A stretch of 64,000 bases of DNA from the NCBI GenBank assembly GCA_030431515.1, contig JAUIIX010000002.1, positions 62,001 through 126,000 on the forward strand, in the 5' to 3' direction. The notes below the pieces were generated by a model that was given only the letters and a program-made list of their open reading frames with translations, made no database searches and was not told where the DNA came from. The translations under genes were made by a program, and so were the position numbers. Every line of letters begins with the position of its first letter. Position 1 is the stretch's first letter. This document shows positions 6,686-13,573 of this stretch, one piece after another. The DNA comes from a bacterium (lineage in GTDB: Bacteria > Bacteroidota > Ignavibacteria > Kapaibacteriales > UBA2268).

Positions 6686-6838
6686 TTAATAATTATTTAT
6701 TTGAAATATATTTTCAGCGATTCTATAATTAATAAATGGTTTGGTATTTTCACTAAAAAGCCCAGATAATTTAGCAAATACATCTAATAAATTTAGATAT
6801 TCGGTATTACTAAAATTATGTTTAAATGGGGTAAACAT
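6686..6838 (-). pseudogene. Truncated restriction endonuclease-like ORF coupled to the methyltransferase
   Basis: A 50-codon frame starts with an ATG overlapping the methyltransferase stop (TAATG), so it should be translationally coupled. It reads MFTPFKHNFSNTEYLNLLDV, continues with AKLSGLFSENTKPFINYRIAENIF and then stops. From memory, the segment LSGLFS...PFI.YR.AENIF resembles the amino-terminal end of type II restriction endonucleases with a phospholipase D-like fold (NgoFVII-like group), which usually exceed 250 residues. If so, the nuclease has lost everything after the first tenth. It could instead be an unrelated small protein. Only 13 bp separate its stop from the DksA-like gene start. 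Confidence 0.5.
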
Positions 6839-8073
6839 TAAAGTACTTTTAATATATTTTCAAATATCCTTTTAATTAAAGGCATTGTTACTGAATTTCC
6901 AGCTTGATGATATAGTTTGCTATCAGGTAAGTCAGGTAAAATATATTCTTTTGGGTATCCTTGAAATGAAAAACATTCTCTAGGGGTTAACTTTCTAATA
7001 CCGTAATCATCTTTTATTAAAGGAACATTGTGTCCACCTAAACCCATATTCGCAGTTAATGTAGGACATACATTGCTTTTATTTTCTCTAACATATACTC
7101 TTCTCCATTGATAAATTGTATCTTTGGAAGTCATATTTTTAATTAATTCTGGATAATATTTATGTTCTTTTTTATAATAATATTTATCATCTTGTTTATC
7201 TTTTTCTAAAATATCGTGTATAGTTTTAGTTAAAGTTATTTCTTCTGGAAAATTAAATTCTTTATAATTTACAATTTGATCTGGGTCAAATGCAATTATA
7301 AAAACTCTCTCACGATTTTGTGGAATATTTGCGTGAGTCATTGAATTTAATACTTTATAAAAGATTTTATAATTTAATTTATCTTCTAATATTGATTTAA
7401 TAATTCTAAATGTATTCCCATTATCATGACTAACAAAATTTTTTACATTTTCTAAAAATATAACTTTTGGTCGATATTTATTTGCTATTTCTTCAATATC
7501 AAAAAATAATGTTCCTCGAGTATCTTCAAATCCTTTTCGTAAGCCAGCAATAGAGAATGCTTGGCAAGGAAAACCTGCACATAAAATATCGAAATCTTCT
7601 GGTATATATTTTTTAGTATTTTCCTGAGAGATATCACCAAATGGTATTTCGCCAAAGTTTTTATAATAAGTTTTTTGTGCTGATTTTTCCCACTCACTTG
7701 AAAAAACACATTTCCCATTGGATTCTTGCAATGCTAATCTAAAACCACCTATTCCTGCAAATAAATCAATAAATTTAAAATAAGCATTTTTTGGAGAAAG
7801 AAAGGGAATACTGGCAGTATTATTATTTAAGCCCCTAATAATATCGGCTTCATAAAGTTCGACTTGGTCTTTTAACTGTTTGAATTGAATATATTTTTCA
7901 ATAATATCTTTGCTTTCCGAACCATAAGTTTCTTCTGATTTAGATATATTTTGCAGATAATGAGATAACAACGCCTTATCATTAGAAGATTTTCTAAATT
8001 CTAAGTATTGCTTTGTATCAAAATCATCAAAACTAATATTATTAATAAATTCACTCATTTTATATTCTTTCAT
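6838..8073 (-). CDS. DNA (cytosine-5-)-methyltransferase
   Basis: 411 residues. All main C5-methyltransferase motifs are visible: motif I FKFIDLFAGIGGFRLALQ (about residue 100, AdoMet binding), motif IV CAGFPCQAFSIAG with the catalytic Cys, motif VI FLENVKNF, motif VIII QNRERVFIIAF, and motif X YHQAGNSVTMPL. A helical extension of about 95 residues precedes motif I, as in Dcm-type enzymes. The target-recognition stretch lies between VIII and the LTPRECFSFQGYP segment; its specificity cannot be read. The gene is intact while its probable restriction partner downstream is a stub, so it is likely an orphan enzyme now. It is divergent to the capsid cassette, and could either be cargo of that element or an old restriction-modification system. 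Confidence 0.93.
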   Translation of the reverse strand: MKEYKMSEFINNISFDDFDTKQYLEFRKSSNDKALLSHYLQNISKSEETYGSESKDIIEKYIQFKQLKDQVELYEADIIRGLNNNTASIPFLSPKNAYFKFIDLFAGIGGFRLALQESNGKCVFSSEWEKSAQKTYYKNFGEIPFGDISQENTKKYIPEDFDILCAGFPCQAFSIAGLRKGFEDTRGTLFFDIEEIANKYRPKVIFLENVKNFVSHDNGNTFRIIKSILEDKLNYKIFYKVLNSMTHANIPQNRERVFIIAFDPDQIVNYKEFNFPEEITLTKTIHDILEKDKQDDKYYYKKEHKYYPELIKNMTSKDTIYQWRRVYVRENKSNVCPTLTANMGLGGHNVPLIKDDYGIRKLTPRECFSFQGYPKEYILPDLPDSKLYHQAGNSVTMPLIKRIFENILKVL

Positions 8074-8281: not shown

Positions 8282-9145
8282 ATGTGGATTGAGATTTTCA
8301 AAAAAGGTAATCATACCGATTCGTCTGGTAAGAAAATAAACTATACTGATGACGATATTAATGAGATTGTAAATAAATATAATCTTAAAGTAAAAGAATC
8401 TGATTCTTTTGAAGCACCTATTGTGAAAGGTCACCCAGGTAGTGATGAACCAGCTTTCGGTTGGGTAGAAAGACTACAAAAGAAAGGTGATGTAATTATT
8501 GCTAAATTAAAAGATGTAACGCCCGAATTAATGAAGGAAATTCGTGATGGTCGATTTAAAAAAGTATCTGTTGCATTATATAGTGATAATATGCTTAGAC
8601 ACGTGGGATTGCTCGGTGCTATGCCACCTGCAATTAAAGGATTAAAAAATGTATCTTTTAATGAAAATAATTATTTAGAGATTAATCAATTATTTAATAA
8701 AGATGATTTAAATAATGAAGTAAATGAATTAATCTTATTTAATGAAGAATTAAAAGAAAAATATAATACTTTAATTATGGAGAAAAAGAAATTATTCGAT
8801 GAAATTAATAGTATTAAAAACAAAGAATTTATTGAGAATATTAAAACAAAAGGAAAAATAAATGATTCGACTTCTGAATGTATAATTAATTTATTTTCCG
8901 AATTAAATGAAATAGATAATTCTAATAAATTAATTAATAATATAAAAGAAATTATTTTAAATTTAGTAGATAATAAATTAAATAATAATTATTATGATAA
9001 AATTAATTTAACTACTGAAAATAAGTTTTCTGAATTTCAGAATGTAAACAAGGATAGACTACATTTACATGAAAAAACAATAGAAATATTAAACGCTAAC
9101 CCTACTTTAACTTACGAAGACGCATTATTATTAACAAATAAATAA
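8282..9145 (+). CDS. Mu-like prophage I protein: capsid maturation protease/scaffold
   Basis: 287 residues. Residues 1-125 match Mu gpI-like proteases: an N-terminal FKKGNHTDSSGK segment, EAPIVKGHPGSDEPAFGWVE, then AKLKDVTPELMKEIRDGRFKKVSVALY, and RHVGLLGAMPPAIKGL. Residues 126-287 are low-complexity, Asn/Lys/Glu-rich and predicted helical, as expected for the scaffold half that shapes the procapsid and is later removed. The start has a strong ribosome site (AAAGGAGAATTTATAATG). It is the first gene of the capsid cassette and is followed by the major capsid gene, the normal order in Mu-like phages. The very AT-rich codon use in the tail is more extreme than in chromosomal neighbours. Confidence 0.85.
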   Translation: MWIEIFKKGNHTDSSGKKINYTDDDINEIVNKYNLKVKESDSFEAPIVKGHPGSDEPAFGWVERLQKKGDVIIAKLKDVTPELMKEIRDGRFKKVSVALYSDNMLRHVGLLGAMPPAIKGLKNVSFNENNYLEINQLFNKDDLNNEVNELILFNEELKEKYNTLIMEKKKLFDEINSIKNKEFIENIKTKGKINDSTSECIINLFSELNEIDNSNKLINNIKEIILNLVDNKLNNNYYDKINLTTENKFSEFQNVNKDRLHLHEKTIEILNANPTLTYEDALLLTNK

Positions 9146-9190
9146 TTAATAATTAATAAATAAATAATTAATAATTAATAAATAAATTAT
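9142..9190. repeat. AT-only tandem repeat between protease and capsid genes
   Basis: A 22-bp unit, AAATAATTAATAATTAATAA plus AT, occurs twice in a row, starting at the last codon of the protease gene. It consists solely of A and T and lies just before the capsid ribosome site (AGGAGACT). Confidence 0.75.
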
Positions 9191-9211
9191 AAAACAAATT
9201 AGGAGACTATA

Positions 9212-10147
9212 ATGTCCTTATCAAGAATAGACACGCTAAGAGCTGTCGATCCGGTGCTTTCAACTATTGCACAATCGTATAGTAATTCATCTTTTATGAG
9301 TGAATTACTATTCCCTAAAGTTTCAGTTTCTAAATTAAAAGGTAAAATACCTAAATTCGGAAAAGAAGCATTTTATTTAAGAGAAATAAATAGAGCTATC
9401 GGAGCGAGTTCTAATAGAATATCGCCCGCTGATTTAGAATTAATTGACTTCGAAACTCACGAAAGAGATGTCGAAATGGCAATTGATTATTTGGAGCAAG
9501 AAGAATCTTCATTTTATCGTAGATACGAAAATCAAGTTACTAAACAACTTGTAGATACTATTGCACTTAAAAAAGAAAAAGAAGCTGCTGATTTGACACA
9601 GAATACTGCGAATTATGGTGCAGGTATGTATGAAACAATTACATCTGGAGATGCTTTTAATGATTATACTTTAAATAAAGATCCACTTGTGAAAATTAGA
9701 GCAGGTATATCGGCAATTCGTGCTAAAATTGGACGTTATCCAAATACAATGTTAATTGGTGAAGCAACTTACAAAGCACTACTTGACCACCCAAAAATAC
9801 TTGAAAGAATAGAATTTAATGGAATTAAAAAAGCAAATGCTGATATTATTGGAAGTATTTGTGATATTGAAAATGTAGGAGTTGGTCTTGCTGTTTCAAC
9901 AACAGACGGAATTAACTTCACAGATATTTGGGAAGATAATATAATTCTTGCTTATGTTGATAAAAGTGATAAAAAGTCTGAATTTATTCCAAGTTTTGGA
10001 TATACTTTCCAACGTGAAGGAATGCCACAAGTTGATACTTATTTTGAAAATGGTGGAAAAATTAAAGTAATTAGAAATACTGATAATTATGCTTTGAAAA
10101 TAACTGCTAATGATGCTGCTTACTTAATTAAAAATACTAATCATTAA
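9212..10147 (+). CDS. Phage major capsid protein
   Basis: 311 residues. It opens with MSLSRIDTLRAVDPVLSTIA and SFMSELLFPKVSVSKLKGKIPKFGKEAF, then ETHERDVEMAIDYLEQEE, a layout I associate with HK97-fold major capsid proteins of Mu-like and related tailed phages. The middle (IRAKIGRYPNTMLIGEATYKALLDHPKILERI) is the conserved part of the fold, and the end has a SFGYTFQREGMPQVDTYFENG stretch. It is preceded by the protease/scaffold and followed by a small decoration-type protein, which supports the assignment. Start at AGGAGACTATAATG. The frame is intact with no internal stop, and base composition is closer to the chromosome than that of the scaffold. Confidence 0.85.
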   Translation: MSLSRIDTLRAVDPVLSTIAQSYSNSSFMSELLFPKVSVSKLKGKIPKFGKEAFYLREINRAIGASSNRISPADLELIDFETHERDVEMAIDYLEQEESSFYRRYENQVTKQLVDTIALKKEKEAADLTQNTANYGAGMYETITSGDAFNDYTLNKDPLVKIRAGISAIRAKIGRYPNTMLIGEATYKALLDHPKILERIEFNGIKKANADIIGSICDIENVGVGLAVSTTDGINFTDIWEDNIILAYVDKSDKKSEFIPSFGYTFQREGMPQVDTYFENGGKIKVIRNTDNYALKITANDAAYLIKNTNH

Positions 10148-10178
10148 TTAAATAATTAATTTAAAATAGGAAAATAAA

Positions 10179-10523
10179 ATGCCAATAAATAATAAAACAA
10201 ATAAATCAATATTAAATTTAACATTAAAATCAGCAGAGGCAATTCCCTCATACAGATTTGTAGATTTTAGTGGAAATTTAGCAAGTGACAACGAAAAAGC
10301 TCTCGGCACAGCAGAGATCTCCTACCTAAGTGGAGAGTTTATGTCAATCGCAGTAGTCGGTGTATCAGTAGTCGAAACTGTAGGTGCAATTACAAAAGGC
10401 ACAAATGTTGCCTCGGCTGCAAGCGGAAAAGCCCGTACAGCATCACCGACTGATAATGTCGTTGGACGTGCATTAGACACTTGCTCTGGTGCTGATTTCA
10501 TCCGTGTTCTTTTGGTGCCATAA
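10179..10523 (+). CDS. Capsid decoration protein (DUF2190-like)
   Basis: 114 residues, Ala/Ser/Thr/Val rich. The sequence ILNLTLKSAEAIPSYRFVDF, then GTAEISYLSGEFMSIAVVGVSVVETVGAITKGTNVASAASGKA, resembles capsid cement proteins (DUF2190 or gpD-like), small beta-tulip trimers that stabilise mature heads. Position right after the major capsid gene agrees. Its codon use is less AT-biased than the rest of the cassette. The stop overlaps the start of the next gene by one base (TAATG). Confidence 0.7.
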   Translation: MPINNKTNKSILNLTLKSAEAIPSYRFVDFSGNLASDNEKALGTAEISYLSGEFMSIAVVGVSVVETVGAITKGTNVASAASGKARTASPTDNVVGRALDTCSGADFIRVLLVP

Positions 10524-10936
10524 TGTATATTAGTAATTTTGAATTAGTTGACGAGCTGGGCCATCAGGGCTTGGCTTTGTTGACTGGAGACCCAACTGGA
10601 ACAGTAGTAGATCAAGCAAAAGTTGATGCTGCAATAAGAATGGCAAGTAATTTAATTGACACTTTTTGCTACCCACGTTATGCAGTTCCATTGTCACCAA
10701 TGCCGGAATTAATTAGGGATATTGCAACAGCACTAACAATTTATAATTTATATATGTTTGCCAAACGTGATGATTTAATTTCTTCAACTATTATTTATAG
10801 AAAAATTGATGCAATTAAATTATTAAATGATATTTCACAAGGAATTTTAAAATTAGATATAATTCCAAATGGTAGTCAATATAAATTTATTTCAGGTCAT
10901 AAAATAATTAATATGGAGGATTTAAACGATGGTTAA
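10523..10936 (+). CDS. Mu gp36-like head-completion/connector protein (DUF1320)
   Basis: 137 residues. The sequence has the DUF1320 pattern: an N-terminal ISNFELVDELG segment, VDQAKVDAAIRMASNLIDTFCYPRYAVPLSP (about 34-65), and ELIRDIATALTIYNLYM. In Mu this gene (gp36) follows the capsid genes and is thought to complete the neck of the head. The start overlaps the stop of the decoration gene, and its end overlaps the next frame by 8 bp, so the cassette is translated as a coupled block. Confidence 0.82.
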   Translation: MYISNFELVDELGHQGLALLTGDPTGTVVDQAKVDAAIRMASNLIDTFCYPRYAVPLSPMPELIRDIATALTIYNLYMFAKRDDLISSTIIYRKIDAIKLLNDISQGILKLDIIPNGSQYKFISGHKIINMEDLNDG

Positions 10937-11261
10937 TAATCAAAAAATTAGTAAAATATATTCTGATATATTATTACAAATAGAAAGCATTTTAAAATAT
11001 ATAATTTTATCAAGTGTATTAATATTTCTACTTTATTTGCTTAAAATAAATGAGAGTGAATATAATACAATTTTACTTGTATTAATTTTTGAAATAATTT
11101 CTATTTTTCTATCAAAAACTGCTATTTATTTTTTAAGTAATGATAATAATTATTTAATTAATAAAAAAGATAATATTTTAAATTCAGCAATTATATTGGG
11201 AGTTCATATATGTACGGGCTTAGTTATACTCGGAGTTTATATAGCACAGTTTTCCTTCTGA
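10929..11261 (+). CDS. Three-helix membrane protein, holin candidate
   Basis: 110 residues with three hydrophobic segments (about 23-42, 47-65 and 85-106) separated by short charged loops and a basic N-terminus. This topology, a size near 100 residues and its position immediately before an endolysin-like gene are typical of class I holins, which open the inner membrane at lysis. No sequence family is recognised. The ribosome site is GGAGG 7-11 bases before the ATG, inside the end of the gp36-like gene. It overlaps the endolysin-like gene by 52 bp. Confidence 0.6.
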   Translation: MVNNQKISKIYSDILLQIESILKYIILSSVLIFLLYLLKINESEYNTILLVLIFEIISIFLSKTAIYFLSNDNNYLINKKDNILNSAIILGVHICTGLVILGVYIAQFSF

Positions 11262-11785
11262 TTTTTATTGCTTGCTCTGGCTTTGTTAAATATGAAATTA
11301 ATTGTGATAAAGATGTAAAAAGCTTATCTTACGATATTGTTTTAAATGAAGTAGGGATTACTGAAATAAATAATAATAGAGGTGAAGTAGTAAAATATTT
11401 AAAGTCCGTAGATTTACCTGCTGGCTACCCTTACTGTATGGCAGGGCAATACTGGGCTTTTGATTCTGCTTGTCGGACATTAAATAAATTAAATCCATTA
11501 TTAAAAACTGGAAGTAGTTCTGCTCAGTTTAATTATTTAAAGAATAAAGGAAAAAATATTAAATTTAATATTAATAAATATGATTTAGTTTTCTGGAAAA
11601 AAAAAGATTCGTGGCAAGGTCATGTAGAAAGAGTAATGGAAACAGGGCAAGCTGGGTTTATTAAAACTATTGGCTTTAATGTTAAGCATAAAAGCAAAGA
11701 AGGTGTTTTTATTAAAACAAGAAATATTTATCATATAATTAATAGAATGTTTTTTGTTGGTTCAATAGGATTTAAAGATGAATAA
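11210..11785 (+). CDS. CHAP/NlpC-type peptidoglycan hydrolase (endolysin), probable lipoprotein
   Basis: 191 residues. Residues 45-150 carry NNNRGEVVKYLKSVDLPAGYPYCMAGQYWAFD, followed by a YDLVFWKK segment and GHVERVMETG. The Cys of PYCMAG and the His of GHVERV fit a Cys-His amidase/endopeptidase of the CHAP or NlpC/P60 kind, as seen in phage endolysins of Bacteroidota. Unusually for an endolysin it begins with a hydrophobic signal ending LIFIACSG, compatible with a lipobox; it may be exported by Sec and tethered. Start at GGGAG-N6-ATG. The 52-bp overlap with the holin candidate and 8-bp overlap with the next gene indicate tight coupling. Confidence 0.75.
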   Translation: MYGLSYTRSLYSTVFLLIFIACSGFVKYEINCDKDVKSLSYDIVLNEVGITEINNNRGEVVKYLKSVDLPAGYPYCMAGQYWAFDSACRTLNKLNPLLKTGSSSAQFNYLKNKGKNIKFNINKYDLVFWKKKDSWQGHVERVMETGQAGFIKTIGFNVKHKSKEGVFIKTRNIYHIINRMFFVGSIGFKDE

Positions 11786-12110
11786 ATTAATAATCCTTGA
11801 CCCAAGTGCTGATTCTGATTATTTATTTAATTGTGATATTAATAAAATTCAGAATTTCGGCAGACAAGCTAAAATTCATCAAATTGAAATTGTCTGGGAT
11901 TCACTCTCAGGCACTTTCAATGGTGAGTTGAATGTGTATCAAGAAAGTAAATATTCTACTTCATTAATTGAGAAAATAAATATTAATAATGCGAATGATT
12001 CTAAATTAATTTTATTAAATAATTATATAGGAAAAATTAGGGTAGAATATAAAAGCAATTTAATTGCTTCTGGTAATATTAAGTTTATTATTTATTGGAG
12101 GAATTTATGA
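11778..12110 (+). CDS. Small beta-rich protein of the capsid cassette, function unknown
   Basis: 110 residues: no signal peptide and no membrane segment. Alternating hydrophobic residues (IHQIEIVWD, GELNVYQ, GKIRVEYK, IKFIIYWR) suggest a compact beta-sandwich. Such small proteins in phage blocks are often tail or head accessory proteins, but I recognise no family. It overlaps the endolysin-like gene by 8 bp and its stop overlaps the next start (ATGA), so it is part of the same translation unit. Confidence 0.65.
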   Translation: MNKLIILDPSADSDYLFNCDINKIQNFGRQAKIHQIEIVWDSLSGTFNGELNVYQESKYSTSLIEKININNANDSKLILLNNYIGKIRVEYKSNLIASGNIKFIIYWRNL

Positions 12111-12511
12111 AGGATTTAATTTATATTTTAATTATATTAATTATTTTATTTTCCTTTTATTCAAATAATAATAAAATAAATACTCAATATATTAATAAAA
12201 TTGATACTATTTATAAATTAAAAATAGACACAATTAATATTAAAAGTAAAGCAAAAGTAATTTATAAGCACGACACAATATATACTACACGAGCATTTGA
12301 TGCACAACTTGACACAAACTTAAATAATAATATTATTAAAATAAACTATTCTTTTCCAGAAAATACTTTTAAATATAATTTATTAAGGAAGGATTCTATT
12401 CTCACATTTAATAAAATTGAATACAAGGAAGTCTATAAAAAAGAATGTTATTATTATGGATATATTTCTGGAATTATTACTTCTGGGATTTTAATATTAA
12501 TTTCTAAATAG
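12107..12511 (+). CDS. Membrane protein with N- and C-terminal helices, spanin-like candidate
   Basis: 134 residues from the ATG at 12107, chosen because GGAGG stands at 12097-12101 and the ATGA overlaps the previous stop; the TTG at 12095 would overlap the ribosome site. The N-terminal segment MKDLIYILIILIILFSFY is a membrane anchor, the middle is charged and may be extended, and the last 20 residues (YYGYISGIITSGILILI) are hydrophobic. A bitopic protein behind holin and endolysin candidates could be a spanin-type lysis protein or an antiholin. This is inference from position only; the sequence family is unknown. Confidence 0.55.
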   Translation: MKDLIYILIILIILFSFYSNNNKINTQYINKIDTIYKLKIDTINIKSKAKVIYKHDTIYTTRAFDAQLDTNLNNNIIKINYSFPENTFKYNLLRKDSILTFNKIEYKEVYKKECYYYGYISGIITSGILILISK

Positions 12512-12520
12512 GAAAATAAA

Positions 12521-13573
12521 ATGAAAAATATAAATAATACTTACTTCGATAAAATAAATAATTATATCCCAAATATAAATGAATTTCTTACTTATGATAG
12601 AATTAGGGAGTTGCGAAAATTAACTCAAGACCCGCATATCTGGAGTTGTATTCAATCTCGAAAATCTGGTTTGCTTTCGCTCGACTATCAACTTGAAATA
12701 AAAGATATTAATTATTTAGAAAATATCGATATTCATAATTTAATTTCTAATATTCTCGAATCAGTTTTTTATGGATTCCAAGCATTTGAACTTATTTGGG
12801 ATTGGAAAGGATATTATTACCCTAAAGCAATTATTCCACTGCCTCAAGAAATATTTCGAAAAGAATCTAATAAAGATTTAAAAATAATTATTAATGGCTA
12901 TCCGCAGGAAGTCGATAAAGATAAAATAATTCTTGCTATAAATGAACGCTCATTTATTTCACCTCTGGGAGTTTCTTTGCTTGAAAAATGCTACTGGTCG
13001 GCGAAATTCAAAAACACAGGAATGCGTTATTGGATAGATTATTTAGAGCGATTTGGAATGCCGATGATAATTGCTAAAATGAACAGAATGTCGAGTGATG
13101 GGGAAATGGAAAAATTAATGAATGAACTACATCAAATGGCGGGGAACAATATACTCGTTACGCCGAAAGATTTTGACATCGAATATCGTGAATCGCAACG
13201 TCAAGAGGCAGTTGAAATTTTCGCTACAATGGTAGAACTATGCAATGCAGAAATCTCTAAAACTATTTTATCCCAAACACTAACTACCGAGATTAAAAAT
13301 GGTTCACTCGCCGCTGCTGAAACTCATCTTAAAGTTCGTAAAGAAGTGATTGAATCCGACGCACGATTAGTTTCATACTTTATGAATGATTTAATTCGAC
13401 TAATTAATAAAGTAAATAAGCAAGATAGTGGAATGAGATTTCAAATAATGATAAATGACGAAGACAAAAAAGAAAGATTAGAACGCGACATTGCTCTCTC
13501 AAAAATCGGTGTCAAATTCTCAAAACAATATTGGATAAAACAATATCAATATCTTGAAGATGATTTGGAGTGA
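12521..13573 (+). CDS. Mu gp29-like portal protein (DUF935), short form
   Basis: 350 residues. The DUF935 pattern is clear: LTQDPHIWSCIQSRKSGLLS near 35, FYGFQAFELIWDW near 88, LLEKCYWSAKFKNTGMRYWIDYLERFGMPMIIAK near 153-186, then ILSQTLTTE and AAAETHLKVRKEVIESD. Portals form the dodecameric ring through which DNA enters the head. Mu gp29 has about 510 residues, so roughly 150 are missing, mostly after the core. In Mu the portal stands before the protease; here it is the last gene of the cassette. The frame is open with a good ribosome site (AGGAAAATAAAATG). Confidence 0.85.
   Translation: MKNINNTYFDKINNYIPNINEFLTYDRIRELRKLTQDPHIWSCIQSRKSGLLSLDYQLEIKDINYLENIDIHNLISNILESVFYGFQAFELIWDWKGYYYPKAIIPLPQEIFRKESNKDLKIIINGYPQEVDKDKIILAINERSFISPLGVSLLEKCYWSAKFKNTGMRYWIDYLERFGMPMIIAKMNRMSSDGEMEKLMNELHQMAGNNILVTPKDFDIEYRESQRQEAVEIFATMVELCNAEISKTILSQTLTTEIKNGSLAAAETHLKVRKEVIESDARLVSYFMNDLIRLINKVNKQDSGMRFQIMINDEDKKERLERDIALSKIGVKFSKQYWIKQYQYLEDDLE

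Follow-up and report, generated by a model that had tools for sequence, protein, structure and literature searches.

A conserved head and lysis gene block in Kapaibacteriaceae, a candidate domesticated gene transfer agent dispersed over several loci

Gene transfer agents are phage-derived systems which are dispersed over several loci and vertically inherited (PMC9662315, PMC11841831). The named examples, RcGTA (Rhodogtaviriformidae), BaGTA, Brachyspira VSH-1/BhGTA, Dd1 and the Methanococcus VTA, have phage-derived head, portal, terminase and lysis genes at several chromosomal loci and lack genes for replication and integration (PMC9662315, PMC11841831); RcGTA and BhGTA particles have tails (PMC9662315). 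We describe here a block of nine genes at positions 8282-13573 of a 64,000-nucleotide stretch of DNA (the window) from a member of the Kapaibacteriales (GenBank contig JAUIIX010000002.1, positions 62,001 to 126,000), which lies in contig C15 of genome G000 (3.5 Mb). A preliminary description made from the sequence alone had proposed a domesticated capsid system, a helper-dependent satellite, a protein container or, less attractively, early decay, and as a whole it is partly supported. Our analysis suggests that the block is probably the head-plus-lysis locus of a domesticated, multi-locus system resembling gene transfer agents (a viriform), vertically inherited since the ancestor of the Kapaibacteriaceae. 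To our knowledge, neither Kapabacteria nor any other lineage of Bacteroidota is known to have a gene transfer agent, and the agents studied in detail are tailed; a literature search pairing Kapabacteria with gene transfer agents or prophages found no precedent and no report of such a system in either group.

Like the named agents, the Kapaibacteriaceae system has phage-derived head, portal, terminase and lysis genes which are chromosomal, spread over several loci and vertically inherited. We liken it to them also in its apparent lack of replication and integration genes, though no dedicated integrase search was made for it. It differs from them in its ancestor (Mu-type portal and PHROG 1005 capsid), its host family, its terminase, which is a lone unlinked gene, and the lack of a recognisable tail; DNA transfer is in this case a prediction. 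Four genomic hallmarks of gene transfer agents are present: head, portal and terminase genes of Caudoviricete origin, long-term vertical inheritance with the host, purifying selection on the structural genes and dispersal over several chromosomal loci, since the terminase is unlinked in nearly all genomes and genus g9 has a divided cassette as well. The system is a candidate rather than a proven member of the class, one predicted to package host DNA and pass it on.

The cassette also resembles Mu-headed tailed phages (Rhodobacter phage RcapMu, Pasteurella phage AFS-2018a and the Kapaibacteriaceae prophage L036), with 32-46% capsid identity and homologous other head genes; L036 and the cassette have the protease, cement, gp36, portal, holin, lysin and X2 genes in common. 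In complete Mu-headed prophages, however, the portal gene adjoins the terminase, portal and protease are longer, and a tape measure and other tail genes are present. The cassette has none of these features and ends with the portal gene, and the linkage of tail and terminase to head genes expected of a complete Mu-like prophage is lacking. The finding that the preliminary description had named as fatal to its proposal, the same block inside a complete prophage of a relative, was not made; related but distinct prophages coexist with the block.

Conservation, dispersal and selection

A capsid orthologue is found in 46 of the 54 Kapaibacteriaceae genomes, almost always as one copy, and sister families have none beyond distant matches. 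The gene order (protease, capsid, cement, gp36, holin, lysin, X1, fibre-like genes where present, X2, portal) is repeated, with local losses, in 18 further family genomes and in most of 20 more. It is identical to that of the window in a Candidatus Kapaibacterium metagenome-assembled genome from Lake Pavin, whose capsid is 59% identical. The comparison with related genomes suggested in the preliminary description thus shows an order kept across the family and flanks conserved within genera. No terminase or tail gene adjoins the block in family genomes, save a terminase directly upstream in G288 and in metagenome contig L162, which may be the ancestral arrangement.

In most family genomes a Terminase_6C search revealed instead a lone terminase at an unlinked site, singly among host genes. 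These proteins, recovered by Terminase_6C and alignment A1, form one orthologous group: a profile of 16 lone terminases detects a full-length large terminase in 45 of the 54 genomes at 574-753 bits, while other terminases of the family reach 492 bits at most. Their Walker A/B motifs and nuclease acidic residues are intact. PHROG 2 was dropped as a probe, its true matches lying in prophages only and most others being other ATPases. In the closed genome G217 (2.66 Mb), the two loci map to 0.95 and 2.64 Mb, a separation of about 1 Mb around the circular chromosome; terminase and cassette share a contig in G326 and G160, 15 and 30 kb apart. We found a lone terminase and no cassette in G210, a cassette and no lone terminase in G247, and neither in G268, either because these assemblies are incomplete or because the genes have truly been lost.

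Capsid, portal and terminase trees recover the genera, the sole exception being two g3 terminases left ungrouped in the midpoint-rooted terminase tree. Distance matrices of the unlinked genes correlate (Mantel r 0.42-0.79, each permutation p 0.0005), with r values against the terminase of 0.56 for the capsid, 0.64 for the portal and 0.79 for the lysin. Members of a genus have flanking genes in common at both the cassette and the terminase locus, and a glycosyltransferase gene beside or near the terminase is common to genera g4, g6, g9 and g12. The dN/dS ratios, based on two close genus pairs only, are far below 1, unlike the neutral values that the preliminary description had named as a second ground for refutation: cassette genes give 0.04-0.22 (genus g7) and 0.01-0.14 (genus g8), the terminase 0.05-0.09. 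A rearrangement has divided the block of genus g9, and G262 retains the two parts intact, which fits trans-acting chromosomal genes and not a mobile unit. The original suggestion of a domesticated capsid system split over several loci is therefore strongly supported by the conserved unlinked terminase, the family-wide vertical inheritance and the purifying selection.

The same data bear on two other explanations. The block could be a decaying remnant of an ordinary Mu-headed prophage, its frames intact only through recent loss: the head genes are phage-derived and resemble those of complete prophages such as L036 and L055, and G000 has a split terminase, no fibre gene, and a portal, holin, X2 and terminase nuclease half that are the fastest-evolving of their sets. 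However, dozens of family species with 43-62% capsid identity have this set intact and equally tail-less, dN/dS is low, the unlinked terminase is conserved and it is not plausible that more than 20 genera decayed recently and independently to one gene set. We judge this explanation very unlikely: early decay is the wrong account of the family and may hold for G000 alone, given its split terminase and fast portal.

Capsid-forming phage satellites (cf-PICI) are small elements which encode a capsid without a full virion gene set, as the cassette does. A satellite obtaining terminase and tail from helper phages would account for a block without a tail and, locally, without a terminase, and related phages occur in the same genomes. 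In contrast to such satellites, the cassette system has its own conserved unlinked terminase and a vertical signal, occurs as a single copy in nearly all family genomes between conserved flanks of host genes, and exhibits no integrase or sign of mobility (no dedicated integrase query was run). Its viral-contig relatives are few, all short and mostly chromosomal-looking. The helper-dependent satellite of the preliminary description is thus extremely improbable.

Four IMG/VR "viral" contigs carry the cassette (L004, L162, L282 and L283), of which the last three seem to be fragments of relatives' chromosomes and not viral. In L004 the genes run from terminase to portal with no tail, and other genes occupy the place of the lysis module; this contig was considered as a closed circular satellite and rejected, no terminal repeat being found. 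Plasmid-borne capsids, among the matches listed, are distant (about 36%) and were set aside.

Gene content of the block and evidence for a tailless particle

The nine frames first described all exist, are intact and lie on one strand, overlapping or tightly spaced (Table 1). Five have firm matches to phage head families: protease, major capsid, cement, gp36 adaptor and Mu-type portal. The holin candidate is so labelled from its position, size and hydrophobic make-up only, and X2 may be spanin-like, judging from its position and hydrophobic pattern. Structural matches of X1 are generic and include the HFTV1 capsid turret and phage tail/adhesion modules.

Table 1. Genes of the block, and the gene immediately upstream, with positions in the window
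Gene product	Position	Strand	Length (aa)	Observations
Cytosine-5 DNA methylase	6838..8073	-		immediately upstream of the block
Head maturation protease/scaffold (Mu I-like)	8282..9145	+	287	PHROG 976, E 1.6e-50; accompanies the capsid gene in nearly all examined cassettes
Major capsid protein	9212..10147	+	311	PHROG 1005, E 3.7e-79; Phage_cap_E, E 4e-6
Cement/decoration protein	10179..10523	+	114	Pfam PF09956, E 6e-10; PHROG 673
gp36-type head-tail adaptor	10523..10936	+	137	PF07030, E 6.2e-21
Small hydrophobic protein, holin candidate	10929..11261	+	110	no family match; position ahead of lysin kept in cassettes and prophage L036; fast-evolving here
CHAP-like endolysin with N-terminal signal/anchor	11210..11785	+	191	CHAP match weak here, E 2e-5 in relative L052
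X1, jelly-roll protein, turret/fibre-like	11778..12110	+	110	model pLDDT 89.5; generic jelly-roll matches
X2, membrane protein, spanin-like candidate	12095..12511	+	138	hydrophobic segment at each end; alignment A3 of 20 homologues; adjoins lysis genes in prophage L036; putative function
Mu-type portal protein, short form	12521..13573	+	350	PF06074 (Portal_Mu), E 1.4e-75; fastest-evolving of 30 family portals

Host genes border the block directly (TraB/GumN, a DksA/TraR-type protein, the cytosine methylase, a phosphoribosyltransferase and dCTP deaminase). An AT bias setting the block apart was not borne out, its G+C content being 24-30% against 26-29% just outside; GGAG or GGAGG ribosome sites do precede some genes, while others have TAGGA. 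The reported terminase and tail gap holds, in that searches of the genome placed no terminase, tape measure, Dit or tail terminator on the window contig; for the rest of the 64 kb this negative has no gene-by-gene annotation behind it.

Tail genes were sought in 21 family genomes with tape measure (PHROG 58), prophage L036 tail tube, Dit (PHROG 33) and tail terminator (PHROG 209) probes, the tail tube being a single prophage sequence and as such weak as a negative test. Strong matches that could be placed were all in prophages, the rest were weak or isolated, and most genomes had none. Portals of intact cassettes are about 335-405 aa long versus 464-520 aa for most prophage portals. In several relatives, X1 and X2 are separated by a gene, absent from the window's block, for a protein with a phage-tail-repeat-like N-terminus and a variable C-terminus, sometimes with LamG domains. 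The particle thus appears, from its gene complement, to be tailless or nearly so.

The lack of a tail would also suit a non-genetic container or lysis device, a capsid holding protein or released as a signal or weapon. Consistent with this, both gp36 and X1, normally needed for DNA delivery, are absent from all five g5 genomes examined. Yet a portal and a terminase competent in its nuclease and ATPase motifs are under purifying selection in the same species, with no obvious use outside DNA packaging. The retention of the portal, the lysis genes and a terminase with intact catalytic residues makes the protein container raised in the preliminary description less likely, and we regard any such device as improbable.

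In genus g5 (G302, L259:10476-12778) and a related metagenome contig (L283:3538-5843), a UmuC-type translesion polymerase gene directly follows the portal gene, and in L283 the two overlap. This arrangement hints at some connection with the DNA-damage response. Defence-type genes for a type IIG enzyme and a PLD-helicase are inserted within the cassette of G315 (L003:1811-9694). That of G091 (L040:1794-10358) contains a methylase and a PDC-S58/ApeA-like protein, with lysin and portal truncated.

Points against a functional system and the split terminase of G000

Several observations weigh against an active gene transfer agent. The system is described from its genes, and particles, packaged DNA and transfer are predictions. 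No small terminase was found, nor any tail genes for the system, although divergent ones may lie elsewhere, and related complete prophages are present in some of the same genomes. The portals of G225 (L046:4908-6043) and G326 (L243:13352-14506) and the lysin of G233 (L047:8708-9223) are in two frames, through either sequencing error or real loss, and the G091 cassette is truncated. No significant result came from a test for a shared promoter across 33 genomes (p 0.23). In favour of the system, genus g7 has an 11-bp direct repeat (TTTYAAA-N4-TTTYAAA) just upstream of the protease gene and also of the unlinked terminase, in 6 of 7 intergenic clusters at six loci (p about 7e-7 for a motif picked after inspection); as a sign of shared regulation of both loci, this is a lead only.

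The remaining point against concerns the window's own genome, in which the terminase is split. The ATPase half (C30:4198-4827, residues 5-215) and the nuclease half (C53:71287-72051, residues 206-469) are open frames on two contigs, and the break falls in the inter-domain linker. Both halves match best the intact gene of G306, of the same genus, with 60% (ATPase half) and 39% (nuclease half) identity, which led us to reject a prophage remnant as the source of the C53 fragment. Near-invariant residues are retained at 33 of 35 positions in the ATPase half and 29 of 36 in the nuclease half, catalytic ones included. Assembly error is a less likely cause of the split, because the divergence of the nuclease half far exceeds what a break existing only in the assembly would predict. 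In G000 the nuclease half, portal, holin and X2 are the most diverged of their sets, with the branches of the nuclease half and portal the longest; capsid, cement, protease and ATPase half show ordinary divergence. Two separate phage-like regions, L133 (G000:C116) and L055 (G000:C119), each with its own terminase, portal and capsid and each cut by a contig end, also occur in this genome and are possibly two halves of one prophage.

In the window's lineage the system is either being lost or remodelled around a two-piece terminase. Under the first of these, a family-wide system that is real and selected would have been inactivated here, its terminase cut by rearrangement and its packaging genes left to drift. 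The contrast between the two pieces in G000 and the single intact gene of G306 is in line with this, as are the long nuclease and portal branches, while the open halves, the cut exactly in the linker, the retained catalytic residues, the nine open cassette frames and the normal rates of capsid, cement and protease argue the other way; we rate inactivation a real possibility, a little short of an even chance. Alternatively, separate ATPase and nuclease proteins may work as a natural two-piece terminase with a rapidly co-evolving portal; the family would then share a gene transfer agent without a tail, or another DNA-packaging capsid owned by the host, whose gene set has been broken up by genome rearrangement, a more speculative reading which we consider rather unlikely.

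Proposed mechanism and significance

If the block does belong to a domesticated gene transfer agent, the system would have entered the Kapaibacteriaceae ancestor and descended vertically thereafter. Protease, capsid, cement and portal would build a procapsid, which the lone terminase, with its ATPase and nuclease, would fill with host DNA by headful packaging. The putative holin, CHAP lysin and spanin-like protein would then lyse the producer cell and release the particles. Binding to recipient cells might involve the jelly-roll protein X1 and, in many relatives, the variable fibre-like and LamG proteins encoded beside it, which are absent in this genome. In the window's lineage, the split of the terminase gene at its domain linker and the rapid evolution of the packaging genes would lead to loss or to a two-piece terminase.

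Single-locus searches miss systems of this kind, as do virus catalogues which list such fragments as viruses. The 54 genomes represent a large natural series of gene losses, splits and relocations. If our reading is correct, a system that was domesticated independently, is present family-wide and apparently has no tail would broaden the concept of gene transfer agents and make it possible to test how DNA might pass out of one cell and into another when there is no tail.

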